Notes under the pieces: model-generated
Databases searched by the model: none
What the model was told of the DNA's origin: nothing
The model's input: the letters and a program-made list of their open reading frames with translations, nothing else
Shown here: piece by piece, positions 12,581 through 51,459 of the stretch
Position numbering within the stretch: position 1 is the first letter of the stretch
How the letters are laid out: every line of letters starts with the position of its first letter
Position numbers and translations under genes: made by a program
Origin: a virus
DNA length: 54,338 nt
Direction: 5' to 3' (one strand)
IMG/VR virus record: IMGVR_UViG_3300021062_000018
Span: 1 to 54,338 of that record

Positions 12581-14215
12581 ATGGCCGAGAAGCGCGTAGA
12601 CATCGTCGTCGGGGCCAAGGACGAGGCGTCCGGCAAGATCAAGGCGACGGCCGAGAAGGTCCGCAAGGAGCTGTCGGCGCTCGACACGCTCAAGGGCGGG
12701 CTGGGTGAGGAGTCGGCGCTGGGCAACACCCTGAAGGTGTTCCAGGGCGCCGGGGCCATCGCCGGCCTGACGATGGCCGGGACCATGCTGAACACGCTGG
12801 CCACGAAGGCCGGCGAGCTGCGGCGTGAGCTCAACTCGGGCGAGAAGTCCGCCGGCCAGGTCGCCGAGGAGGCGGCCAAGTCGCTGCCGATCTTCGGCCC
12901 GCTGGTCGACGCCGGCCGGAAGTTCCGGGCGATGCTCGACGGGTCGGCCGATGCGGTCGAGCGGATCCAGTCGGAGACGGCCGCGGTCAACGCCCGCACG
13001 GAGGCGATGGCCACCAGCGCGGCCGTCGTCAACGACAAGTGGGGCGGGCTGCCGGAGATCATCCGGAAGGTCCGGCAGGAGATCGACACGCTGCGGACGC
13101 CCGAGGCGGACCGGGCGAAGGTCGGCATCGCGTTCAACGCCGAGGAGGAAAAGCGGGCGGCGGTCAAGGCCGCCGAGGACGCGGCGAAAGCTGCGAACGA
13201 GGCGTGGCAGAAGGCGGACGCGGCCGAGGCGGTTAACGTCGCCGCCGCCCAGCGTCGCATGATGGCGGCGAAGGACGCCGCGCAGTCGGGGTCCGCGTCT
13301 GGATCCGCTGGCGTCGGAGCGAGGGCTGTCGACGATTCCGGACCAAGGCGGGAGGCCGCTGCCCGAGCCGAGCGCGAGTTCCTCGCTGCCAACGCCCGCC
13401 AGAGGGCTGACGCGATGGCCCGGGACGCGAAACTGCAGGCTATCGAGAAGCAGAAGCAGGACGCGGTCACCGACATCGAGCGGAAGGCCCAGCTGCAGCG
13501 GGCCGAGATCGAGCGACAGCAGCAGCGCGAACGGGAAGCCCGGTGGGCTGAGGAGTTCAAGCTCGAGCAGGACCGCGCCCGCCAGCGGGTACAGCTCGCC
13601 ACCGACACCCAGCGAAAGGTCGCCGACATCGCCGCGCAGATGCAGGACGACCGGCTCCGGCTCGCCGGCAAGGGCTTCAAAGCCGACGCCCGGGCGACGT
13701 GGCGGGCGGCCCAACAGGACATCGTCGGGACGCTGCTCGGCGCCGTCTCCGGCGTCTCGCCGGGCGGCGGCACGTTCGGGGCCGAGGGGTTCCTCGACGC
13801 GGGGGCGCGGTTCCGGACGGCCGCGGGGGCGGTGCCGTCGATCACCGCCCAGCGGGACCAGGCCCTCGAGATGCAGTGGAAGGCGAAGGCGGTCGACCAC
13901 ATCAAGCGGGCTCTGTCCGGTCCGTCCCGGGAAGACATCGCCAAGTCAATCCTGCCGACGGCGTCCGACGCGCTGCTCCGGGGGCTGTTCGGGGGCACCG
14001 GCCCGAACCTGCGTGAGGTGCCGCCGGTGGCCCAGATCGCGCCGACGCCCTTCGCGTCACTCCGCGAAGCCCGGTTTCTGACTGGGGCCGGGCTCGACGA
14101 CCCGACGCTGCGGATCGCTCGCGAGCAGAAGGCGCTGCTGACCAGAGCGACGGTCTCGCTCGAGCGGATCGAGGCCCGGATGCGGCAGGAGAACGTCGTG
14201 AAGCTGTTTAACTGA
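12581..14215 (+). CDS. Tail tape measure protein
   Basis: The 544-residue protein starts RVDIVVGAKDEASGKIKATA, the typical opening of phage tape measures, followed by long coiled coils. A hydrophobic segment (GAGAIAGLTMAGTMLNTLA) is near residue 50, and a Glu/Arg/Gln-rich helix covers about 260-350 (KAQLQRAEIERQQQRERE). Tape measures set tail length at roughly 0.15 nm per residue, which predicts a tail near 80 nm if none is removed; this is an estimate only. The ATG lies four bases after the GT frame stop. Confidence 0.9.
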   Translation: MAEKRVDIVVGAKDEASGKIKATAEKVRKELSALDTLKGGLGEESALGNTLKVFQGAGAIAGLTMAGTMLNTLATKAGELRRELNSGEKSAGQVAEEAAKSLPIFGPLVDAGRKFRAMLDGSADAVERIQSETAAVNARTEAMATSAAVVNDKWGGLPEIIRKVRQEIDTLRTPEADRAKVGIAFNAEEEKRAAVKAAEDAAKAANEAWQKADAAEAVNVAAAQRRMMAAKDAAQSGSASGSAGVGARAVDDSGPRREAAARAEREFLAANARQRADAMARDAKLQAIEKQKQDAVTDIERKAQLQRAEIERQQQREREARWAEEFKLEQDRARQRVQLATDTQRKVADIAAQMQDDRLRLAGKGFKADARATWRAAQQDIVGTLLGAVSGVSPGGGTFGAEGFLDAGARFRTAAGAVPSITAQRDQALEMQWKAKAVDHIKRALSGPSREDIAKSILPTASDALLRGLFGGTGPNLREVPPVAQIAPTPFASLREARFLTGAGLDDPTLRIAREQKALLTRATVSLERIEARMRQENVVKLFN

Positions 14216-16308: not shown

Positions 16309-16317
16309 CGAATCACT

Positions 16318-16556
16318 GGCCGTACCGGGTGAACTCAGGGAAGCCTACCGGCCGCGAGGCCCACGGTAATCCTGAGCCGAGCCGGCGGGGAATCCGCCGG
16401 AAGGTGCAGAGACTACGGGCCCCGACAGACCGTCGATGATGCCCGCACGAGCGCCCGGCCCCGCAGACCGCCCGAATGGCGGGAGGGGAAGAGATAGTCC
16501 GACACTCCGGTGAAAGCCGGAGGGCTGGGATAAAGAGCCCGGCCGCCAACGATGTG
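16318..16556 (+). ncRNA. Group I self-splicing intron, IC3-like core
   Basis: The sequence contains the ordered conserved elements of a group I ribozyme. P/Q: aactcaggg (from 16331) pairs with aatcctgagcc (from about 16368) to form P4. P5 has GGCC-GCGA-GGCC with a GNRA tetraloop. P6 is a perfect seven-pair hairpin (CCGGCGG/CCGCCGG, 16382-16400). R is gtgcagagacta (16404-16415) and S is gagatagtcc (16491-16500), forming P7. Two hairpins follow (CTCCGG/CCGGAG and GGGCT/AGCCC). The elements resemble the cyanobacterial tRNA-Leu intron. Splice sites are uncertain: TCACT before 16318 can pair with GGTGA, and G16556 is the best terminal guanosine. No endonuclease is inside it. Confidence 0.9.
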
Positions 16557-16564
16557 AGCTGACT

Positions 16565-16789
16565 TTGTCTACTGGCTGGCTCACGGTCCCCCAGAGCGAA
16601 GCCCGCAGGCGGTTCACCCTGAAAGGGGCCGAACGCCTGCGGGCTTCTGCCGTTGATGGGGCGGCCGACCCGTGGCGGGTGCCGCCCGACGTGTACGCCG
16701 AGTGCCAGCGCTGGTACCGCCAACCCGAGAAGATCCCGGACGGGTACACCGTCGATCAGTGGCGCGAGGGCGGGTGCGGGTGCAAGTGA
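16565..16789 (+). CDS. Small protein downstream of the group I intron
   Basis: The 74-residue frame starts at TTG and reads STGWLTVPQSEARRRFTLKG, then WRVPPDVYAECQRWYRQPEK, and ends in a CGCK tail. It is open upstream into the intron 3' end as far as a stop at 16511, so the true start may be supplied by the 5' exon after splicing. No ribosome site is visible before the TTG in unspliced RNA. The function is unknown. It ends at the boundary to the minus-strand cargo genes. Confidence 0.6.
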   Translation: MSTGWLTVPQSEARRRFTLKGAERLRASAVDGAADPWRVPPDVYAECQRWYRQPEKIPDGYTVDQWREGGCGCK

Positions 16790-16790
16790 C

Positions 16791-23568: not shown

Positions 23569-24288
23569 TTAGGTCAACCCATAGCAGATTTTGCGGCACC
23601 CGGGTGTCATGGTGTTAGTAATGATGTGGCGATCCTCGGCGGTGAACTTGTGGAAGTGGTCCTTGTGAAAGATCGCGAGCACGAAGTTGGTTGCCTCCGC
23701 GCATTTCTCGACGGCGAGCGTGTGGAGTTCAAAGGTCGACCTGTCGTACCGTACTTCCGCCACAGCCCGACGGGTTTCGAGATCCGTTACCCGTCGCCCG
23801 TGCACGCCGGCGGAGAGCTCGTCGTACAGCGTCCGTAGCCGGTGCACCGCATCAAACTTTTTCTCTGCCTCGGCGATCAGCGGGTGCTCACCCGCGTACT
23901 CGAGCAGCTCGTCGACGCCGACGTACCACTTCCCGCGATCGTTCATACGCCGGAACTCGATGGGGTGGTCGGCGAAGTAAACGTGCCTCAGCACGTTCTC
24001 GACCACGCCGCGGATCAGCAGCTTCGTCGTCTTCCCGAAGCCGATCATCGCCTGTGGCAATACCTGAAGGGAGTCGGACGCGATTTCCTCGACGAACCAT
24101 TTGGCGTGCTCTGGCATCTTCGGGAGCCGGAACCGCCACAGGATCAAGCTATATGTCGCCCGGTGCATCCGCTTGGCGATTCCCGCGTCGTCGGCGGGGA
24201 ATCGCTCGGGCACGATCCCTCGCTCCGCCAGGTGCGTCATCACCCCCTGGAAGTCAGCGGCGACCGTTGGGATAGCACGCTTGGACAT
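23569..24288 (-). CDS. ParA-linked protein, HEPN-like helical, unknown function
   Basis: The 239-residue protein starts at ATG 24288, sharing one base with the ParA stop (TGATG), so the two are translationally coupled. It is all-helical with a motif RTLYDELSAGVHGRRV near residue 155 that resembles the R-x4-6-H region of HEPN-type helical proteins, and a C-terminal helix rich in His (FHKDHFHKFTAEDRH). It has no ParB-type HTH. It could be a partition accessory or the effector of an ATPase-controlled system. The HEPN resemblance is tentative. Confidence 0.7.
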   Translation of the reverse strand: MSKRAIPTVAADFQGVMTHLAERGIVPERFPADDAGIAKRMHRATYSLILWRFRLPKMPEHAKWFVEEIASDSLQVLPQAMIGFGKTTKLLIRGVVENVLRHVYFADHPIEFRRMNDRGKWYVGVDELLEYAGEHPLIAEAEKKFDAVHRLRTLYDELSAGVHGRRVTDLETRRAVAEVRYDRSTFELHTLAVEKCAEATNFVLAIFHKDHFHKFTAEDRHIITNTMTPGCRKICYGLT

Positions 24289-25691
24289 CAGAGCTTCGTT
24301 CCCTTGATGATCCGCTCCCACCTAGAGAAGAAGTCGCGCCGGTCTGCCGCCCGATTCGTGTCGCGCGACATGGCTTCCCTCATCGACCGCTCGAACGCGT
24401 CCCGGGTGCCCGGGTCCAGCGTTTCCAAGTATTCGATGATCCGCGCGGCGATGTCACCGCGCGACATCTTCCGGAACCGCGTGCGGCTCATGTTCGGCAG
24501 GATGCTGGCCGCGAAGGTGATCAGATCTGGATTGGACGGGAACAGCCGCTTCTGCCGCAGCAGGTCGAAGAGGTGCATCGACTCGCCGGATCCAGGCTTC
24601 CGGCCGGACTTGCCCCGAGGAGGCTCGGGCGAGAGTGGTTCCGCCTCGGACTCGGCGGCCTGCGCCAGCCGCAGGTAGGCGTCGATGACCGGGATCAGTG
24701 GAGGGGCCGAGACGAACGCGGTTTCGCGGAACCGCTCCAGGTCCTCTTTGGAATAGGACGCTGGCACGCCCAGTGCCTTTTGGGCGAACGCCAGAAACGC
24801 ATGATGTCGCCGGTTCTCCGCCAACGCTACGCTCCGCCCGTCCGGGTCCAAAACTCTTCCACTATCGACTGCATCTCCTTCGCCACTCGACCATGGCTTG
24901 TACTTAAAGATGGGCTGGTGGTGCTCAACCGACTCCGCGACGTGCGTCGAGACGGAGAGGTGGCTCTGGAACATCTCCTCGCCGTGGTTCGCCCGCAGGG
25001 TGTCCATCACCTCGTTCATGCGCGGCACGTTCGCGCGGACGAGCGTGAACACCATTCCGATCTTCTCCAGGCGAATCCCGTACCGCTCCATGCAGTCGTC
25101 CAGCCACCGCTCGAGCAGCGGCAGCCCGACGATCGACAGAGGGTCCGGCTTGATCGGGACGATGTACTTCTGGCTGGCGAGTACGGCCGCCTGGGAGAAG
25201 AGGCTGACGGTCGGCGGGCAGTCGATGATGACGTAGTCGTACCCCCTCGCCCGCTCGTTGATGAAGTTGTTGAGCATGCGCTCCGTGCCGCGCGGCGCGG
25301 CCTCGGAGTCGATCAGCTTCAGCGTGGACGGGATGATGTCGAGCCGCCCGCCCGGCCCCTTGCCCGACGTTCCGGCGTAGATCGGGATGGTGAAGGCCGG
25401 CAGCGACATCCGGCTGCGGTTCACCGGCTTGGCGAAGCCGGTGACGGTGTTTATGGATCCGTCCCGGCGCGGAATCAGGACGTCGAGGAGACTGCCTTTG
25501 CTGCGGTCGCCCATGTGCGCGATGTAGGCGTCGTCTTCTACGAGATACTGGGTCGCGTTGAACTGCGGGTCCGCATCCACCAGTAGCACCTGCTTGTGGT
25601 GGAAGTGGGCGAGGCCATAGGCGACGTTGACGGCCAACGTCGTCTTGGCTACCCCGCCCTTCATGTTGATGAACGAAATCACCTGCCCCAT
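24288..25691 (-). CDS. parA: ParA-family partition ATPase with C-terminal extension
   Basis: The 467-residue protein has a deviant Walker A motif INMKGGVAKTT at residues 8-18, a DADPQFN motif, and DYVIIDCPP as the Walker B region, all diagnostic of ParA/Soj ATPases. These form dynamic filaments or gradients on DNA to segregate plasmids. A strong ribosome site GGGAGG lies five bases before the ATG. Beyond the 260-residue ATPase are about 200 extra residues that are not typical: a linker plus a helical domain (FAASILPNMSRTRFRKMSRG). There is no N-terminal HTH, so regulation is likely by the small proteins upstream, as in ParF systems. Confidence 0.9.
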   Translation of the reverse strand: MGQVISFINMKGGVAKTTLAVNVAYGLAHFHHKQVLLVDADPQFNATQYLVEDDAYIAHMGDRSKGSLLDVLIPRRDGSINTVTGFAKPVNRSRMSLPAFTIPIYAGTSGKGPGGRLDIIPSTLKLIDSEAAPRGTERMLNNFINERARGYDYVIIDCPPTVSLFSQAAVLASQKYIVPIKPDPLSIVGLPLLERWLDDCMERYGIRLEKIGMVFTLVRANVPRMNEVMDTLRANHGEEMFQSHLSVSTHVAESVEHHQPIFKYKPWSSGEGDAVDSGRVLDPDGRSVALAENRRHHAFLAFAQKALGVPASYSKEDLERFRETAFVSAPPLIPVIDAYLRLAQAAESEAEPLSPEPPRGKSGRKPGSGESMHLFDLLRQKRLFPSNPDLITFAASILPNMSRTRFRKMSRGDIAARIIEYLETLDPGTRDAFERSMREAMSRDTNRAADRRDFFSRWERIIKGTKL

Positions 25692-26839: not shown

Positions 26840-27337
26840 ATGCCGAAGTTCACGAACAACCCGAAGCTGTCCGACGCCCTGCGGGCCGTCCGCGAGCGGC
26901 ACGGGATCAAGGTCGAGACGCTGGCGGCCGGGTTCCTCTGCTCCGACTCGACGGTCTACGACGTGCTCGGCGAGAAGCGCGCCTGGGACGAGCTGTTCGC
27001 CGACCTCCGCCACGCGCTGGGCACGCTGCCGGCGCCGGCGGCCGACGCGGTGCTCGGCGTGCTGCTGGCCGGCACGGGGTACCCGGTGCCGCCGCGGGGC
27101 GACGCGGTCCGGGACTTCAACGGCGACGGGGTCGAGGACAAGGCGGACATCCGCCGCGGGCTCGCGCAGGTCGCCGGCACGACGGCCCAGCTGCAGGAGG
27201 CGTGCGAGGAGACCGGCCGGCTGCTCACGCCCGAGGAGGCGGCGGCGCAGCTGGCGGCGATCGACGAGCAGCGGCGGAAGCTCGACGGGGTGCGGGAGCT
27301 CGTCGTGCGGCTGACGTACCCGAAGGCGGCGGGGTGA
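26840..27337 (+). CDS. CII-like phage regulator with EF-hand-like loop
   Basis: The 165-residue protein has an N-terminal region (LSDALRAVRERHGIKVETLA, then FLCSDSTVYDVLGEKRAWDE) similar to phage CII-type regulators, a helix-turn-helix with a C-terminal oligomerisation helix. Around residue 90 it has an insertion DFNGDGVEDKADI that fits an EF-hand/dockerin calcium-binding loop (D-x-N-x-D-G-x-x-D). The C-terminal helix (TPEEAAAQLAAIDEQRRKLD) completes the family layout. ATG at 26840 is used; a longer frame reaches 26807. Calcium binding is inferred from the loop alone. Confidence 0.74.
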   Translation: MPKFTNNPKLSDALRAVRERHGIKVETLAAGFLCSDSTVYDVLGEKRAWDELFADLRHALGTLPAPAADAVLGVLLAGTGYPVPPRGDAVRDFNGDGVEDKADIRRGLAQVAGTTAQLQEACEETGRLLTPEEAAAQLAAIDEQRRKLDGVRELVVRLTYPKAAG

Positions 27338-27491: not shown

Positions 27492-28682
27492 ATGCACATG
27501 AGCAGCGGGACCCAACAGACCGCGATCGTGCCGGCCGGGCAGACGACGGCGCTCGCCGTCGCGTCCGAGGCCGACGCGTTCATGCCGGTCATGTCGATCG
27601 AGCAGGCCGTCGGCCGGCGGAACCTCGTCGTCCAGTTCGCGCAGAAGGTGATGGTGAAGGGTCTCGACTACGGGGCGATCCCCGGGACCGGGGAGAAGCC
27701 GACGCTCCTGAAGCCGGGGGCTGAGAAGCTCTGCAGCCTGTTCGGGCTCGTCCCCGACTTCCAGGACTACCGGGTCACGGAGGACTGGGAGAACGGCTTC
27801 TTCTTCTACGCGTACCGCTGCGTCGTCAGCCGCAACGGCAAGCCGATCGGCAGCGGGATCGGGTCCTGCAACAGCCGGGAGAAGAAGTACCGCCGGGACT
27901 CCCGCGCGTGCCCGGAGTGCGGGAAGCCGGCGATCAAGCGGAGCAAGTACCCCCCGCGGGACGACCCGCAGGCCGAGCCGGGCTGGTACTGCTTCGGCAA
28001 GGCCGGCGGGTGCGGGGCCAACTTCGCCGCGGACGACCCGGCGATCGTCGACCAGTCGGCGAAGGTCGACCCGAACGAGGTCGCCGACCTCGTGAACACG
28101 ATCCAGAAGATGGCGCAGAAGCGGGCGCTGGTCGCCGCCGTCCTGGTCGCCACCAGCGCGTCGGAGTTCTTCACCCAGGACGTGGAGGACATGGGGATCA
28201 TCGACGCCGAGGTTGAGCCGCCGCGGGGCCGGACGCCGGCCGCCCACGCCCCGGTCGACGACGAGCCGCAGCAGACCCGCCAGGAGTGGTTCCTCGAGCA
28301 GTGGGACGCGCTGGCCCGCGAGCGCGGGCTGAACGGCGCGGGCCGCGGCGTGCTGCCGGTGCTGGCGAAGAAGGAGAAGCTCCCGACCGACATCAACGCC
28401 TGGACGGACCAGCAGTGCGACGCGGTGCTCAACCGCCTGCGGAACGCGACGGACGAGCAGATCGCCGCGTTGAAGAAGCCGGCGGCGAAGGCACCGGCCA
28501 AGGCCTCGGCCGCCCAGGTCGAAAGGATCGGCGAGCTGCTCGGCGACGTGGCCGACCCGGGCGCCGCGCTGGCGGACGTCCTGCGGGCGCACAAGGTCGA
28601 GAAGCTCGACGACCTGACGGCCGACGCGGCTGTGAAGTTGATCCAGTCCCTCGAAGCCGAGCCGGCCGCCGCGGGGGCGTGA
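27492..28682 (+). CDS. DNA-metabolism protein with zinc ribbon, RAD52-like core (tentative)
   Basis: The 396-residue protein is of a type found in many phages. It has KPTLLKPGAEKLCSLFGLVP near residue 75, a GSGIGSCNSREKKY stretch, a zinc ribbon (CPECGKPAIKR, then WYCFGKAGGCGANF) and the signature NTIQKMAQKRALVAAVLVAT near residue 205, ending in FFTQDVED. The last segment resembles the helix of RAD52-like annealing proteins, so a second single-strand annealing or DNA-binding role is plausible. The C-terminal 150 residues form a linker plus an HhH-like helical domain. GGAAAGGG lies upstream of the ATG pair at 27492 and 27498. Confidence 0.62.
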   Translation: MHMSSGTQQTAIVPAGQTTALAVASEADAFMPVMSIEQAVGRRNLVVQFAQKVMVKGLDYGAIPGTGEKPTLLKPGAEKLCSLFGLVPDFQDYRVTEDWENGFFFYAYRCVVSRNGKPIGSGIGSCNSREKKYRRDSRACPECGKPAIKRSKYPPRDDPQAEPGWYCFGKAGGCGANFAADDPAIVDQSAKVDPNEVADLVNTIQKMAQKRALVAAVLVATSASEFFTQDVEDMGIIDAEVEPPRGRTPAAHAPVDDEPQQTRQEWFLEQWDALARERGLNGAGRGVLPVLAKKEKLPTDINAWTDQQCDAVLNRLRNATDEQIAALKKPAAKAPAKASAAQVERIGELLGDVADPGAALADVLRAHKVEKLDDLTADAAVKLIQSLEAEPAAAGA

Positions 28683-29082
28683 CGGACTGATTTCTAACGG
28701 AGGGGCGCTGAACCTGCGGTGACGGTGTGACCCGCAGCGGAGCCCCGCACGACCCCTGCCCCGGTTGCACCGACTGAGGCAGGGTAGGCCGGCGGATGAG
28801 CCGGGGATCCGGGTGGGCCCGTCGGAAACGGCGGCCCCACCCATGAGGCGAGAGCCTCGCGAGGGATAGAGCCGCGTGCGGTGGGCAAGCCAAGCCGCAC
28901 GAAACGACCGCAAGCGTCCGGCGAAGCGGCGTGCAGGTGACTACCGAGGAGCCGGAGTGCGGGCGGGTCGGGCGGAGACGCCCGGCCCTCCCTTCGCGGC
29001 GCGTGCCGCACGGGGCGACGGGCGCAGCCATTGACCCGGCCCGGCGTCGCCCCGGTTGAACAACCGACGGCAGGAGGCCCCC
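28683..29082 (+). ncRNA. Structured 5' leader/noncoding RNA upstream of csrA
   Basis: This 400-base gap contains no plausible gene. It has many strong hairpins: CTGCGG/CCGCAG at 28714-28737; CTGCC/GGCAG around 28756-28783; CCGGC-GGATGA-GCCGG at 28789-28804; GGGTGGG/CCCACCC around 28811-28842 with an inner CCGT-CGGAA-ACGG; GAGGC-GAGA-GCCTC at 28845-28858; GTGCGG/CCGCAC at 28877-28899; GGGCG-GAGA-CGCCC at 28970-28983; GGGGCGAC/GTCGCCCC at 29013-29053; and CGGTTG-AA-CAACCG just upstream. At least two loops carry GGA, the CsrA recognition core, suggesting autoregulation by the downstream csrA. A mobile or riboswitch-like RNA is an alternative. Confidence 0.6.
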
Positions 29083-29427
29083 ATGCTGGTGCTCGCGAGG
29101 CAGCGTGATGAGACGATCGAGATCGGCGACCGCGCGCAGACGTCTGTGATCCTCAGCCCGGCCGACGAGGCGGCGCTGAAGGGGTGCACCGACCCGGCCC
29201 TGCAGGACCTCGCGGCGCGGCTGCTCGACCCGACGAACCGCGGCGTCGTCCTCGCGACCGTCGTCGACATCCGCGGGGACAAGGTCCGGATCGGCCTAGC
29301 CGGGCCGCGCGGCGTGGCGTTCAACCGCCGCGAGGTGGCCGAGTCGATCCGCCGCGAGGGCCGGCACGTGCAGCTGCAGCCGAACCGCGTCGTGAAGCAC
29401 GGCGTCCCCCTGGAGGCAGGCCGATGA
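29083..29427 (+). CDS. csrA: CsrA-family RNA-binding regulator with insertion
   Basis: The 114-residue protein starts MLVLARQRDETIEIGD, the classic CsrA/RsmA opening, and continues VVLATVVDIRGDKVRIGLAG and FNRREVAESIRREG, matching strands 2-5 and the helix. CsrA dimers bind GGA motifs in mRNA leaders and block translation. Here about 38 residues (SPADEAALKGCTDPALQDLAARLLD and neighbours) interrupt the fold between strand 1 and strand 2, and a C-terminal tail of about 20 residues follows. A perfect AGGAGG ribosome site precedes the ATG. The stop overlaps the next start (ATGA). Confidence 0.85.
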   Translation: MLVLARQRDETIEIGDRAQTSVILSPADEAALKGCTDPALQDLAARLLDPTNRGVVLATVVDIRGDKVRIGLAGPRGVAFNRREVAESIRREGRHVQLQPNRVVKHGVPLEAGR

Positions 29428-29795
29428 TCCGCTTCCTCGACGGCCCGGCCGCAGGCGTCAACCTCGTCCTCCGCCGCGCGCCGATCATGCTCCGGGTGGT
29501 CCGCTCCGCCGCAGGCGAGTGGGACGCGCTCGACCAGCTCGACGACGAGCCGGCCGCCGGCGAGGCGGTCTACGTCTACCGGCTGCAGGGCGACGCCGGG
29601 TGGATGCACATCGACTATCGAGACAAGGCCGGCCGCCGTCGGGGCGAGACCCGGATGACCGGCGACTACCGGTACGTCGAAGCCCAGCCGGGCGACCAGC
29701 ACACGCTGACGAACGCGGCGTGGGTGGCGTGGTGCGACGCGAACAAGGACCGGATCCTGGCCGAGCGGGCGGCCGCGGTGCCGGCGAACGGGTGA
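29424..29795 (+). CDS. Hypothetical protein downstream of CsrA
   Basis: The 123-residue protein overlaps the csrA stop (ATGA). It opens MIRFLDGPAAGVNLVLRRAP and forms a compact alpha/beta domain with many aromatic residues (VYVYRLQGDAGWMHIDYRDK, then YVEAQPGDQHTLTNAAWVAW). No signal peptide or catalytic motif is visible. It is coupled to csrA and may modulate it. The family is not recognised, although the start resembles small phage proteins with a (M)IRFxDGP(A)AG opening. Confidence 0.68.
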   Translation: MIRFLDGPAAGVNLVLRRAPIMLRVVRSAAGEWDALDQLDDEPAAGEAVYVYRLQGDAGWMHIDYRDKAGRRRGETRMTGDYRYVEAQPGDQHTLTNAAWVAWCDANKDRILAERAAAVPANG

Positions 29796-29803
29796 GGACG
29801 ACG

Positions 29804-30112
29804 ATGGACCAGGCGACAGCACAACCCACGGTGGCCGGCGGCCCCTACGTCCCGCTGCCCGCCCCGCCGCCCACGCGGATGCTCACCGCCGAGCAGGCCG
29901 CCGCGTACTGCGGCGGCATGAGCGAGCGGACGTTCCGCGACTTCCGGTCGCGCTGGGCGGTCCCGGTGATCCCGCTCATGCCCCAGACGTACCGCTACGA
30001 CGTCCGCGACCTCGACGCCGCCCTCGACCGGGCACGGGTCGCCGCCGTCGCCAAGGGCAACGCGCCGGCCGGCGCCGGCGCGCGGGCAGAGAGCGAGGCC
30101 GCCAATGGCTAG
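29804..30112 (+). CDS. Excisionase-like HTH protein
   Basis: The 102-residue protein has a winged-helix/HTH-17 motif (MLTAEQAAAYCGGMSERTFR, then FRSRWAVPVIPLMPQTYRYD), the pattern of excisionases and recombination directionality factors. It sits directly upstream of the integrase and overlaps it by eight bases, the standard xis-int arrangement, so it likely controls excision. GAGGA five bases before the ATG is a good ribosome site. The C-terminal Ala/Gly tail looks disordered. Confidence 0.8.
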   Translation: MDQATAQPTVAGGPYVPLPAPPPTRMLTAEQAAAYCGGMSERTFRDFRSRWAVPVIPLMPQTYRYDVRDLDAALDRARVAAVAKGNAPAGAGARAESEAANG

Positions 30113-31535
30113 CGTGATCAACGACCCCAACGGCCGCAAGCGGATCGAGTTCACCGGCGCCGACGGCCGGCGGAAGCGGGTCCGGATCGGCGTCGCCAAC
30201 GCCGCCAAGGCCGACGCGTTCCGGGCGAAGGTCGAGGAGCTGGCGAACGCCCGGGCCGGCGGGTACGAGCCGTCGCGTGAGGCGGTCGCCTGGTTCGCCG
30301 CGCTCCCGCCGCTGCTCCGCAAGCGGGTGTCGGCCGCCGGGCTGATGCCCCCCTCGGCGGACCCCGCGCGCCGCGAGCTGTCGCTCGGCGGGCTGCTGAC
30401 GGAGTTCCTCGCGGCCGCCGAGGTGAAGGCCGGGACCCGGAAGGTGTACGAGCAGGCCCGGGACAAGCTCGTCGAGTTCTTCGGGGCCGGGAAGCTGATC
30501 CGCGACCTGACCCCGCTCGACGCCGAGAAGTGGAAGCAGTGGCTGAAGGCCGCCGGGTTCGCCGAGGCGACGGTCGCCAAGCGGGTGAAGGTCGCCCGCC
30601 AGGCGTTCAAGGCCGCGGTCCGCTGGCGACTGCTCGCCGAGTCGCCGTTCGCCGGCGTCCGCCCCGGCTCTCAGCGGAACAAGGCCCGGCAGTTCTTCCT
30701 GTCCCGCGCCGACGCCGCGACGGTGATCGCCGGGTGCGGGGACACGGACCTGGCGACGGCGTTCGCGCTGGCCCGGTTCGGCGGGCTCCGGGTGCCGTCC
30801 GAGGCCGTCGCGCTCAAGTGGTCGGACGTCGACGAGGCCGGCGGGCGGTTCCGGGTGACGAGCCCGAAGACCGAGCGGCACCCCGGCGGCGAGCAGCGGT
30901 GGGTCCCGCTGTTCCCGGAGCTGCTCCCGCACCTGGCGGCCGCGCGCCGGCGGGCCGACGCGGTCGGCTCGCCGTTCGTGCTCACAGAGAAGCGGAGCGC
31001 GACGCAGAACCTCGGGACGCGGCTCGAGCGGGTGCTCGCCCGGGTCGGGGTTAAGCGGTACCCGAAGCTGTTCCAGAACCTCCGCAGCACGCGGCAGACG
31101 GAGCTCGTGGCGGACGGGTGGCCCCAGCACGTGGTGTGCGCCTGGCTCGGGAACTCCGAACAGGTCGCCCGGGACCACTACTTCCAGGTGACCGACGCGG
31201 ACTACCTGGCGGCGGCGGGCCGGTCGGTGCCGGTCGCGCCCAAAGTCGCGCCCAATCAGGCCGCGACCCCCGCGAATCCCGGCGGATCAGGAGCTTGTTC
31301 GGACCCCTCATGGCCCACTGAACCCACCGGCGAACGCCGGCACACCGCCGGCAAACCCAGCGCAACGAGTCAAAAAGAGGGGTCGGAGGGTACGACGGGT
31401 ATCCGTCTGCCGTCGCCTGCCGGCGTTAGCCGCGCCCAAATTCGCGCCCAATCTGAGGACCGGTTCGCCCGCAGGCAGCAGCTGCTCGCCCGGGTGATGG
31501 GTCGCGTCCTGCGCCGGAACGGGGGTGGCCGGTGA
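30105..31535 (+). CDS. int: Tyrosine recombinase (integrase)
   Basis: The 476-residue protein has an SAM-like core-binding domain (residues 95-190) and a catalytic domain: first Arg in LARFGGLRVPSEAVALKWSD near 230, box II as LFQNLRSTRQTELV near 325 where the usual His is Asn, WLGNSEQVA near 345, and the nucleophile Tyr in HYFQVTD near 359. This variant box II and motif set is what I expect in planctomycete integrases. After the tyrosine there are 115 low-complexity residues, an unusually long tail; the DNA there carries direct repeats. It integrates phage DNA at an attachment site not identified here. Confidence 0.92.
   Translation: MASVINDPNGRKRIEFTGADGRRKRVRIGVANAAKADAFRAKVEELANARAGGYEPSREAVAWFAALPPLLRKRVSAAGLMPPSADPARRELSLGGLLTEFLAAAEVKAGTRKVYEQARDKLVEFFGAGKLIRDLTPLDAEKWKQWLKAAGFAEATVAKRVKVARQAFKAAVRWRLLAESPFAGVRPGSQRNKARQFFLSRADAATVIAGCGDTDLATAFALARFGGLRVPSEAVALKWSDVDEAGGRFRVTSPKTERHPGGEQRWVPLFPELLPHLAAARRRADAVGSPFVLTEKRSATQNLGTRLERVLARVGVKRYPKLFQNLRSTRQTELVADGWPQHVVCAWLGNSEQVARDHYFQVTDADYLAAAGRSVPVAPKVAPNQAATPANPGGSGACSDPSWPTEPTGERRHTAGKPSATSQKEGSEGTTGIRLPSPAGVSRAQIRAQSEDRFARRQQLLARVMGRVLRRNGGGR
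31235..31458. repeat. Direct repeats inside int, arm-site/attP candidate
   Basis: A 25-base unit beginning CGCGCCCAAA and ending CGCGCCCAAT occurs at 31235-31256 and again at 31431-31452, with one internal mismatch, then diverging tails. Each unit holds two copies of GCGCCCAA, four in all. The first unit is read in the integrase frame as V-A-P-K-V-A-P-N, the second as R-A-Q-I-R-A-Q-S, because the two lie in different codon phases. Conservation is therefore of DNA, not protein, as expected for recombinase binding sites. Confidence 0.6.
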
Positions 31536-34055: not shown

Positions 34056-35714
34056 ATGGAAGACAACGGACCGACCAACTTCGAGCCGGCAGACCCCGCC
34101 GACGCCCCGAGCGCGACGCTGCCGGACACGCGGCCGTACACGCTGGCGGCGGCGTACCTCCGGGCGCGGGGGCTCGGCGAGGTCCACGAGTGCAAGGACG
34201 CCCGCGGGTTCGAGATGCTGCGCTTCGTGCGGCCGACCCGGCTCCGGCACTGGCGCGAGGAGTTCTACGAGTTCCAGTCGTGCGTCTACCGCCGCCGGCT
34301 GCTCGAGCAGCTGCTGAGCGACCTGACGCTCTTCCTGAACAACCAGTGGCACTTCAAAGCGGGGAATGAGCGGGTGCCGCTGCGGGTGACCGGGAGCACG
34401 GTGAACGACGTCGTCCGCCAGCTCCGGGCGCTGTGCCAGGCGGACGTCGAGGCGATGCCCGAGTGGCTCGACGGCGAGGCCGGTGACGACCGCCCGGACC
34501 CGCACCACGTGATCGCGTTCGAGGACGGGCTGCTCGACTACCGCGCGTGGCTCGACGACCCGGCGGTGCCGCTGCAGAAGCCGACCCCGGACTGGTTCAG
34601 CGTGGCGGTCCTGCCGCGGCCGTACCAGCCGGTCGCCGAGTGCCCGAAGATCCTCGGGTTCCTCAGGCAGTCGATCGGCGAGGAGCAGATGCCCGTCCTG
34701 CAGGAGTGGGCGGGGTACCTGCTGACCCGGGAGACGCGGCTCCAAAAGATGATGTGGCTGCACGGCGTCGGCGGCGGCGGCAAGGGGACGATCCTCCGCC
34801 TGCTGACCGAGCTGGTCGGCCCGGTGAATGCGGTCAGCTTCCGGCTCTCGGACCTGTGCGAGCGGTTCACCCTGTCGAGCTTCCTTGGCAAGACGTCCGC
34901 GATGAGCGGCGAGACGCTGCTCGGCCGGAGCGACGCGCACCGGATCGTCGAGCACCTGCTGGCGATCGTGGGCGAGGACGACCGGAATATCGACCGCAAG
35001 AACCGCGAGCTGCTCGCCAGCGTCCGGCTCGGGACCCGCCTGACGCTCGCGGCCAATCGGTTCCCGAAGCTCCCGGACGCCGGGATCGCCATGAAGCGGC
35101 GGTCGCTCGTGATCAGCTTCGAGCGGACGTTCGCGTCGAACCCGGACCCGGACCTGTTCGACAAGCTCCGCGCCGAGATGCCCGGCTTCACCGCCTGGGC
35201 GATGGCCGGCCTCCGGCGCCTGTGGGCGAACGGCTGGCGGTTCAGCCAGACCGAGCGAGGGATCGATCTGCTCGAGCGGTTCAGCCGCCAGTCGTCGCCG
35301 GTGAAGGCGTTCGTCGAGGAGTGCCTCGAGGTATTCGCCTACGAGCTCGACGCGGACGGCCGGCAGAAGGAGCGGCCGCGGGAGCTGAAGCGGCACGTGT
35401 ACGAGCTGTGGAAGTGGTGGCAGGGCCGGAACGGCCACGAGCAGATGGCCCTGAACACGTTCTCGGAGCAGCTGTACGAGGCGACCCTGAGCCTGGTGAA
35501 GCCGGGCCGGCCGTGGGTGGAGACCGGCGGCAAGAAGCGAAGGTCCCACACGTTCGACGGGGTCTCGATCCTGTCGAACTACCGCGCGTACATCCCGACG
35601 AACGAGGTCGACGAGACGCCCGACGAGCGGGACGAGCTGCGGGCGCTGGCGGCGGTGGCGAACGGGCACGACCCGGCCGCCCTCGCCCCGGTGCTGCCCT
35701 TCGAAACCAGATGA
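34056..35714 (+). CDS. D5-type (SF3) replicative helicase
   Basis: The 552-residue protein has the D5/P4-type layout: an N-terminal domain of about 220 residues and an SF3 AAA+ ATPase with Walker A GVGGGGKGT near residue 238 and DERFTLSSFLGKT- and TLAANRFPKLPDAG-like motifs after it. The C-terminal PriCT/winged region ends WWQGRNGHEQMALNTFSEQL. Such helicases load at phage origins carrying iterons. A GTG at 34029 overlapping the primase stop is an alternative start; the ATG has GGGAG five bases upstream. It is immediately followed by an iteron array. Confidence 0.85.
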   Translation: MEDNGPTNFEPADPADAPSATLPDTRPYTLAAAYLRARGLGEVHECKDARGFEMLRFVRPTRLRHWREEFYEFQSCVYRRRLLEQLLSDLTLFLNNQWHFKAGNERVPLRVTGSTVNDVVRQLRALCQADVEAMPEWLDGEAGDDRPDPHHVIAFEDGLLDYRAWLDDPAVPLQKPTPDWFSVAVLPRPYQPVAECPKILGFLRQSIGEEQMPVLQEWAGYLLTRETRLQKMMWLHGVGGGGKGTILRLLTELVGPVNAVSFRLSDLCERFTLSSFLGKTSAMSGETLLGRSDAHRIVEHLLAIVGEDDRNIDRKNRELLASVRLGTRLTLAANRFPKLPDAGIAMKRRSLVISFERTFASNPDPDLFDKLRAEMPGFTAWAMAGLRRLWANGWRFSQTERGIDLLERFSRQSSPVKAFVEECLEVFAYELDADGRQKERPRELKRHVYELWKWWQGRNGHEQMALNTFSEQLYEATLSLVKPGRPWVETGGKKRRSHTFDGVSILSNYRAYIPTNEVDETPDERDELRALAAVANGHDPAALAPVLPFETR

Positions 35715-35719
35715 CCCGA

Positions 35720-35930
35720 GCCCTGACCGGACCCTGACCAAAAGGACGATGACCCTGACCAAAGCCGAGTAGACCCTGACCAAAGCCGGCGAGCCAAACA
35801 CGTCTGACGGCGTGGAAATGGAAGGTTCGCGCCGAAACAGGCGTTTTGGTCAGGGTCACCAGGGTCAAAAGCTACGAGAGAGAGATTTAAAGAGAGAGAC
35901 AGAGAGAGAAGTAAGGGAGAGCCCTGTCGG
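35720..35930. other. Iteron array and purine tract, probable replication origin
   Basis: CCCTGACC repeats lie at 35721, 35731 (as ACCCTGACCAAAA), 35752 and 35773. The last three start exactly 21 bases apart (two helical turns) and the first 11 bases before (one turn), so all face the same side. TTTTGGTCAGGGT at 35844-35856 is a perfect inverted copy of the second unit. From 35868 follows a purine tract of GAGAGA blocks around ATTTAAAG that could melt. The array lies directly downstream of the helicase gene and includes very short peptides reading (M)TLTKAE, an effect of the repeat. The arrangement is that of a phage or plasmid origin. Confidence 0.72.
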
Positions 35931-35957
35931 CCCTGCCACCATGACCGAAGGAACGCC

Positions 35958-40720: not shown

Positions 40721-41613
40721 GCACGCAACCCGAGATGAAGATCAAAGCCCTCGCCCCCTGGTTCGGCGGGAAGCGGACGCTGGCCCCGACGATCGTCGAG
40801 GAGCTGGGCCCGCACCGGGCGTACTGGGAGCCGTTCTGCGGGTCGATGGCGGTGCTGCTGGCGAAGCCCCAGAGCCGGCAGGAGACCGTCGTGGATCTGC
40901 ACGGTGACCTGATCAACCTCGCCCGCGTCATCCAGTCGCGGGACACCAGCGCCGCCCTGTACCGGAAGCTCCGCAGCACGTGGATGCACGAGGACACGCT
41001 GCGCGAGGCCACCGCCCTTCTGGCCGAGCGGGCCGCCGACGCCGACGCCCGCGACGTCGGCCGCGCGTGGGCCTTCTTCGTCGCCTCGTGGTGCGGGCGG
41101 AACGGGTCTGTCGGGACCGAAGGGCACGCCCGGACCAACACGTTCTGCATCCGGTACACCGCCAACGGGGGCGACTCGGCCACCCGGTTCCGCGGGGCGG
41201 TCGAGTCGATCCCCCAGTGGCGCGAGCGGATGCGGAACGTCACGATCCTTAACCGCGATGCCTTCGAGGTGCTCGCCAAGATCGCCGACGAGGCGCAGTG
41301 TGTGATCTACGCCGACCCGCCGTACCTGGTGAAGGGGGCGAAGTACGTCCACGACTTCGGGGAGGGGTTCATGGGGCAAGACGATCACGCCCGGCTGGCC
41401 GACGCGCTCCGCCGGTTCAAGAAGACCCGCGTCGTCGTCAGCTACTACGCCCACCCCCGGCTGGCGGAGCTGTACCCGGGCTGGACGCAGCGCGCGGTGA
41501 CCATGGTCAAGAACATGGCCAGCGCCACGAGGCGGGAGGCCGGCGCGACCGCCGCCCCCGAGGTCCTGCTGATCAACGGCCCGTCGCTGGCCGCCGGACA
41601 GGAGGTCGCGTGA
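40717..41613 (+). CDS. dam: DNA adenine methyltransferase (D12/Dam class)
   Basis: The 298-residue protein has APWFGGKRTLAP near residue 17 (AdoMet-binding F-x-G-G-K) and IYADPPYLVKGAKYVHDFGE near residue 200, where DPPY is the catalytic motif of N6-adenine methylases of the D12 class, plus LINGPSLA at the end. It methylates a short target such as GATC to shield phage DNA or control packaging and replication. Start ATG at 40717. The gene ends convergently against a minus-strand receiver protein gene. Confidence 0.88.
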   Translation: MSTQPEMKIKALAPWFGGKRTLAPTIVEELGPHRAYWEPFCGSMAVLLAKPQSRQETVVDLHGDLINLARVIQSRDTSAALYRKLRSTWMHEDTLREATALLAERAADADARDVGRAWAFFVASWCGRNGSVGTEGHARTNTFCIRYTANGGDSATRFRGAVESIPQWRERMRNVTILNRDAFEVLAKIADEAQCVIYADPPYLVKGAKYVHDFGEGFMGQDDHARLADALRRFKKTRVVVSYYAHPRLAELYPGWTQRAVTMVKNMASATRREAGATAAPEVLLINGPSLAAGQEVA

Positions 41614-41662: not shown

Positions 41663-42037
41663 TCACGGCTTCCCCGCGTGCTGGGACACGGCCGCGAGGA
41701 CCGAGTCCCACGAGGCCCGGCCCTTCACCAGGAACTCGTTCGCCCCGAGCCGCATCGCCTCCTCGCGACATTCCGGGGAGACGTCGGCCGTGTACATGAC
41801 GACCGAGACGGACTCCGTACGCGGGTCGCGCCGCACCGCCCGCAGGACGTCCAGCCCGCTCATGTCCGACATGGGGCAGTCGAGCACGACGGCAGCCGGC
41901 ACCCGAACCGTCAACAGGCGCAGCGCCTCCGGCCCGGTCGGGGCGGCGACGGCCTCGTACCCGGCGAACCGGAGCAGGCGCTCCAGGCACTGGGCGGTGT
42001 CCAGGTGTTCCTCGACGATCAGCACAAGTTTCGGCAC
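41663..42037 (-). CDS. CheY-like single-domain response regulator
   Basis: The 124-residue protein is a receiver domain alone: LVLIVEEHLDT (acidic pocket E9 and E10, normally Asp-Asp or Asp-Glu), VVLDCPMSDMSG with phospho-acceptor D53, MYTAD with T83, and EFLVKGRAS with K105. In two-component systems it is phosphorylated by a sensor kinase. No output domain or kinase is nearby. The start is GTG at 42037; an AAGGA lies about ten bases upstream. It is the only minus-strand gene among plus-strand ones here and may be acquired from the host. Confidence 0.75.
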   Translation of the reverse strand: MPKLVLIVEEHLDTAQCLERLLRFAGYEAVAAPTGPEALRLLTVRVPAAVVLDCPMSDMSGLDVLRAVRRDPRTESVSVVMYTADVSPECREEAMRLGANEFLVKGRASWDSVLAAVSQHAGKP

Positions 42038-50841: not shown

Positions 50842-51459
50842 ATGGCCGACCACCGCAGCATCGTCCGGACCGCATTGCGAGCGGTCGCTGACCACCTTCA
50901 GCCCGTCCCGCGATCCCGCCGGATCGCGTTCGTCGGCAACTCGTTGGTGCAGGGGCACATGGTCCCGGCCGACGCGAGCCTCCCGGCGCAGGTCGCCGCC
51001 CTGATCGGCCGCCGCTGGCGGGTCGCGAACCTAGGCGTCGGCGGCCAGGTGACCGCCGAGCTGCCCGACGACGTGGGGTGGCGCGGGGTCTGCGTGATCT
51101 GGGAGGGCACGAACGAGCTTGCCGCCGGCGCGACCGCCGACGACGCGTTCGGCCGACTGAGGGACTACTGCTATCGCCAGCGGATCGCGCGCCGTCGCGT
51201 GCTGCTGCTGACGATCCTCCCGCGGCAACAGCCGGGACTGCCGGAAGGCTTCGATGCGGCGCGGGTCAAGGTTAACGACCGTCTGCGCGGCTCCTACTCT
51301 TGGCACCAGTTGATTGACGTAGCCGCGATCCCCTCGCTGAGTGATCCGACCGACGCCCGCTTCTACCACGACGGAATTCATCTGACGCCGGCCGGGTACG
51401 CCCTCGTCGCCGAGCCGGTCGCCCAGGAGATCCGCGAGCCGATCTTCTATCTAACTTGA
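50842..51459 (+). CDS. SGNH/GDSL-type hydrolase
   Basis: The 205-residue protein has FVGNSLVQG near residue 30 (block I with N instead of D before Ser), VIWEGTNELAAGA near 95 (block III) and DGIHLTPAGYALVAEP near 180 (block V with D-x-x-H). These are the SGNH hydrolase signatures. It would deacetylate or hydrolyse sugar esters on surface polysaccharides, complementing the acyltransferase beside it. ATG at 50842. It ends in a TTGA overlap with the tail fibre gene. Confidence 0.76.
   Translation: MADHRSIVRTALRAVADHLQPVPRSRRIAFVGNSLVQGHMVPADASLPAQVAALIGRRWRVANLGVGGQVTAELPDDVGWRGVCVIWEGTNELAAGATADDAFGRLRDYCYRQRIARRRVLLLTILPRQQPGLPEGFDAARVKVNDRLRGSYSWHQLIDVAAIPSLSDPTDARFYHDGIHLTPAGYALVAEPVAQEIREPIFYLT

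Follow-up and report, generated by a model that had tools for sequence, protein, structure and literature searches.

A temperate phage CsrA with an RsmN-like insert and a hairpin-rich non-coding leader upstream of its gene

The csrA locus of the phage

The window analysed here is the whole of a 54-kb virus record (IMGVR_UViG_3300021062_000018; 54,338 nt), to which all positions refer unless another locus is named. A csrA gene encoding 114 residues stands at the head of an operon-like order, being followed by a 123-aa gene, an excisionase-like gene and an integrase (Table 1). Upstream it is separated from the preceding gene by a gene-free stretch of exactly 400 nt under the simple gene model applied. 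Since the neighbours of csrA include the excisionase-like gene and a tyrosine integrase, the phage is considered temperate, and it belongs to the tailed phages. Among the 80 genome loci that match the phage CsrA best, 79 are labelled as Planctomycetota or their subgroups, which makes a planctomycete the likely host, going by the CsrA matches only. The same phage also encodes a stand-alone response-regulator receiver domain (41663-42037, − strand; PF00072), a GDSL-like lipase/esterase domain (50842-51459; PF13472) and, alongside its integrase, a ParA-type ATPase (24288-25691, − strand; PF13614).

Table 1. Genes and sequence features at the csrA locus; probabilities of hairpins are mean pair probabilities.
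Feature	Position	Strand	Basis or remark
phrog_10048-like gene, no function assigned	27492-28682	+	C-terminal GemA-like match just below cut-off
Leader, non-coding, hairpin-rich	28683-29082	+	between phrog_10048-like gene and csrA
5' strand of possible stem covering the Shine-Dalgarno (with 29070-29082)	28702-28717	+	P 0.77-0.96, leader-only fold
Hairpin, 13 bp, loop CAC	28754-28784	+	0.97; keeps its fold in every context tried
Hairpin, 5 bp, hexaloop GGATGA	28789-28804	+	0.97
Hairpin, 13 bp, GNRA tetraloop GAAA	28811-28842	+	0.99
Hairpin, 5 bp, GNRA tetraloop GAGA	28845-28858	+	1.0
Hairpin, 8 bp, loop GGGCAAGCCAA	28875-28901	+	0.86
Imperfect hairpin, context-dependent	28904-28932	+	0.79; absent from some longer contexts
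Hairpin, 13 bp, GNRA tetraloop GAGA, like 28811-28842	28961-28992	+	0.95
Hairpin, 5 bp, loop GCGT	28996-29009	+	0.93
Hairpin, 10 bp outer stem plus inner stem	29011-29054	+	0.94
Shine-Dalgarno AGGAGG of csrA, holds one GGA	29072-29077	+	sequence
csrA, 114 aa	29083-29427	+	PF02599
In-frame insert at the strand 2-3 joint, about 38-39 codons	29140-29256	+	profile pieces, alignment, AlphaFold
123-aa gene, no function assigned	29424-29795	+	ATGA overlap (4 bases) with csrA 3' end
Excisionase-like gene	29804-30112	+	phrog_66, E 1.8e-4
Tyrosine integrase	30105-31535	+	PF00589, phrog_1

An enlarged CsrA and its relatives

The first-pass annotation had claimed that the phage encodes its own CsrA, and the open reading frame at 29083-29427 bears this out, scoring as a whole protein 42.2 bits against PF02599, the Pfam CsrA family (cut-off 27); the strict NCBIfam csrA equivalog cut-offs are missed (44.4 versus 73 and 38.7 versus 70.1). 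As for the RNA-contact positions, L4 and R6 are present and R82 corresponds to the canonical R44, and residues L2, R6, R82 and E84 occupy invariant columns in an alignment of 53 CsrAs. Judged from its sequence, the protein has a CsrA core in which the positions contacting RNA are conserved. That phages can carry csrA is already known: in the available text of the reports on the RsmM phages of Pseudomonas and on the Bcep22-like phage JC1 (gp47), csrA is a phage accessory gene, as it is here (PMC7366521, PMC9144972). JC1 gp47 is of ordinary length (64 aa), unlike the 114-aa protein described here, and that text describes neither an insert nor a 400-nt structured leader for those phages.

The PF02599 match is split into two pieces, 29083-29139 (profile positions 1-19) and 29257-29352 (profile positions 21-52), with about 39 codons between them, and in the pairwise alignment to the family 38 inserted residues follow canonical position 19. 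The extra residues, about 38, had thus been estimated correctly at the outset, but they had been assigned to the joint between strands 1 and 2, whereas the alignment puts them between strands 2 and 3. Structural prediction, which had been proposed as a check of the insertion, yielded two helices within it in the AlphaFold model (residues 26-33 and 38-48; pLDDT of the block approximately 80-93) and a C-terminal helix at residues 83-97, with confidence dropping past residue 90. The overall pTM is only 0.54, in keeping with a single chain taken from a domain-swapped dimer, so that the predicted topology is provisional; strands 1 and 5 did not form in the model. Foldseek gave CsrA as the best match (E 0.01), and structure comparison returned CsrA matches at weak Z only, the lack of RsmN among them being uninformative. 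At the sequence level, a profile including the insert-bearing CsrAs reaches RsmN/RsmF with an E-value of approximately 1e-7, and the single sequence aligns with these proteins from residue 44, which lies inside the insert, onward (E 0.02).

RsmN/RsmF from Pseudomonas aeruginosa (PDB 4KJI, 4KRW, 4K59) is a member of the same family whose insert, likewise of helical character, lies at the strand 2-3 joint as well. Its 16 residues form a helix and oblige the chain to cross over, the RNA-binding sheet being kept (PMC3791407). The RNA-contact arginine is retained in both proteins (R62 of RsmN and R82 of the phage CsrA), and the insert ends with Gly-Ile in RsmN and with Gly-Val (54-55) in the phage protein. 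The latter differs in being phage-borne, in the size of its insert (38 residues with two predicted helices versus 16 residues with one helix) and in the predicted C-terminal helix, which RsmN with its 71 residues does not have.

Inserts at the same joint were sought in 152 distinct CsrA open reading frames, 84 of them from bacterial genomes. Those of at least 13 residues were found in the present phage, in L206, in L253 and in the second domain of L003, and in none of the 84 bacterial-genome sequences; the set was gathered by similarity and neighbourhood and is therefore biased, so that these counts should not be taken as frequencies. The CsrA of L253 (L253:2958-3245), barely above the Pfam cut-off (27.6 versus 27), has a 41-aa insert with no visible sequence likeness to the present one; this phage also possesses a homologue (48% identity) of the upstream gene 26840-27337. 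In L206 (L206:5765-6010) an RsmN-like CsrA with a 13-aa insert is directly followed by a homologue of the 123-aa gene (29424-29795), an arrangement suggesting that csrA and this partner gene form a conserved pair; no homologue of the partner gene was found in 102 genomes of one order. In two phage contigs a pair of CsrA domains is fused in frame and in tandem (L003:5001-5492 and L028:5001-5429); PF02599 matches the former twice, and the insert in its second domain amounts to about 20 residues as read from the alignment. RsmN is reported to possess a uniquely inserted helix; what appears to be novel here is the size and the recurrence of strand 2-3 inserts among phage CsrAs.

A structured leader without detectable relatives

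The 400 gene-free bases reported at first sight ahead of csrA were confirmed, the gap being exact and each of the six frames scoring negative in codon log-odds (−0.31 to −0.49 per codon, compared with +0.36 ± 0.11 in the called genes). The leader, with a GC content of 74%, folds on the + strand with −221.5 kcal/mol (z −3.18), a stability reached by 0 of 100 dinucleotide shuffles, the corresponding z-score of the − strand being −1.92. Its 5' half, with z −3.7, occupies rank 9 among the 542 windows of a whole-phage scan (200 nt each), some of the lower-scoring windows being coding, and the folding is for this reason notable rather than unique. On these computed measures the leader is non-coding and rich in hairpins, with + strand folding better than chance. 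Elsewhere in the phage, the lowest folding z-scores were obtained inside coding regions (−5.76 at 12683-12882 and −5.46 at 41083-41282); a 482-nt intergenic gap (16309-16790) contains a segment, 16483-16682, that is strongly folded on both strands (z −4.45 and −4.14), and strong + strand folding at 35683-35882 (z −3.99) coincides with a 243-nt gap (35715-35957).

About nine hairpins proved robust, with mean pair probabilities of 0.79-1.0, in agreement with the number counted initially. Most of the local hairpins persist across nearly every flanking context tried, and the ends of the leader re-pair. The minimum-energy fold of the + strand contains three GNRA tetraloops as compared with 0.25 expected (1% of shuffles reach three), and that of the − strand contains none. 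Furthermore, two pairs, each consisting of a long and a short hairpin, are mutually alike, the covariance model R1 matching 28939-29011 with 27 bits. A candidate 26-nt internal direct repeat similar to the start region of csrA was discarded, 19% of shuffles equalling the best 26-mer. The possible closing stem over the Shine-Dalgarno sequence falls to P 0 once the csrA coding sequence is added, and 9-13% of shuffles reach an equally good one; because of both results, occlusion of the ribosome-binding site is not claimed. A scan of the leader region for sigma-70-like promoters and intrinsic terminators detected neither, and no tRNAs were found near the leader.

Relatives of the leader were searched for in several ways. 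No Rfam family, including GOLLD, ROOL, introns and riboswitches, matched the leader region at gathering scores, and at E ≤ 10 there were only non-credible matches far under the family cut-offs. DNA searches gave nothing but short GC-rich chance matches, in phages and the record itself, in the 397-genome class samples reached via Phycisphaerales-like loci and via a Thermoguttaceae locus, and in a 95-genome family inside the latter sample; in that family, matches to the csrA part are ordinary CsrAs of 61-102 aa without the insert. One gapped leader pattern had 0 matches in viral contigs, and no relatives occurred in related phages fetched via terminase, csrA and neighbour genes. The single-sequence covariance models R1 and R2, run over 0.9 Mb of phage loci, had no match with E < 0.25 other than the leader itself; a weak match ahead of csrA in L253 (E 0.3) consists of a hairpin, GC-rich and located at a stop codon, and was rejected. 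The regions upstream of four other phage csrA genes (L004, L026, L005, L003) have no visible kinship to the leader and look, by eye, partly tRNA-like or coding. No homologue from which covariation could be read was found in the collections searched (phages, viral contigs and approximately 800 planctomycete-side genomes), among which the leader is an orphan.

Possible roles of the leader and the insert

The original reading allowed for a titrating or autoregulatory leader, with GGA presented in at least two loops. Of the two that it named, the GGA at 28794 is the sole full loop GGA, forming the first three bases of the hexaloop, although it lacks the A of ANGGAN, the register known from RsmE (PMC7652899); the supposed second loop, CGGAA at 28824, does not hold, since its first G closes the GAAA tetraloop. 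All counts are at chance level, with 11 GGA (12.1 in shuffles), two ANGGA (2.0) and one GGA within hairpin loops (0.97), which leaves the decoy reading without statistical support. A CsrB/RsmZ-like decoy or autoregulatory leader, whose GGA-loop hairpins would bind the CsrA of the phage or of its host, could still draw on that loop, on the GGA of the Shine-Dalgarno sequence (29073), on the ANGGAN sites at 28697 and 28862, and on the known autoregulation of csrA in E. coli (PMC7652899), where the leader ahead of csrA also has a GGA at the Shine-Dalgarno sequence. In comparison with the E. coli leader, however, the present one is long, with strong GNRA hairpins and GGA at chance frequency; its stems are long and stable, whereas selected CsrA ligands mostly contain no more than four contiguous pairs, and 22 GGA occur in CsrB itself (PMC7652899). 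Such a role is accordingly regarded as decidedly improbable; weak or non-canonical binding of CsrA to the leader may nevertheless occur.

The robust hairpins, the GNRA tetraloops enriched on the + strand only, the strand asymmetry of folding (z −3.18 versus −1.92) and the internally alike long/short modules (27 bits) would also suit an independent large structured non-coding RNA that represents a new class comparable to GOLLD or ROOL, with which the leader shares being a structured phage RNA. Yet it matches neither of their Rfam models, has no tRNA island, measures only about 400 nt, and is a single example with no homologue in the viral contigs, phages and planctomycete-side genomes and no sigma-70-like promoter or intrinsic terminator, so that this reading is unlikely. 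That the stretch has no specific function, being intergenic, GC-rich and folded by virtue of its composition, is rather unlikely: it would agree with the 74% GC, with the eight other 200-nt windows that score lower, some within genes, and with conservation not having been shown, but not with the shuffles, none of which was as stable, the strand asymmetry, the GNRA excess or the presence of 400 gene-free nt in a compact phage. An element acting at the DNA level or as an insulator, such as an attachment site, origin or terminator array with incidental hairpins, could be argued from the integrase 1 kb away and from other structured gaps of the phage, e.g. that folded on both strands at 16483-16682; better folding of the + strand, GNRA loops confined to it, and the lack of an intrinsic terminator and of a significant direct repeat make it quite improbable.

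The best explanation overall, to which we assign a probability of roughly one half, is a phage csrA operon with an RsmN-like insert in its CsrA and an orphan, structured, cis-acting 5' leader. What is retained of the earlier reading is the enlarged phage CsrA together with the structured non-coding leader, whereas the titrating decoy is unsupported and autoregulation and an independent non-coding RNA stay as candidates. According to the preferred explanation, the protein would be an RNA-binding dimer, in which the two predicted helices of the insert may either force a different path on the chain, like the one helix inserted in RsmN, or add a partner-binding surface; the insert-bearing CsrA might then act on RNAs or partners other than those of the ordinary CsrA of the host. 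The leader is probably cis-acting and not a CsrB-like sponge, and as a folded 5' untranslated region in the csrA mRNA it would protect the transcript, limit ribosome access, or both. A two-part system, in which CsrA gains through its insert a new partner or a new specificity for RNA and works together with a GNRA-rich, one-domain RNA of about 380 nt that represents a new class, is very improbable.

Reprogramming of host translation by the phage CsrA is plausible in view of the family to which the protein belongs. Only conservation among relatives would make the leader important. As the joint at which RsmN has its insert bears larger ones in a number of divergent phage CsrAs (those of this phage, L253, L206 and L003), the loop between strands 2 and 3 is suggested to be a spot at which phages repeatedly remodel a global regulator.
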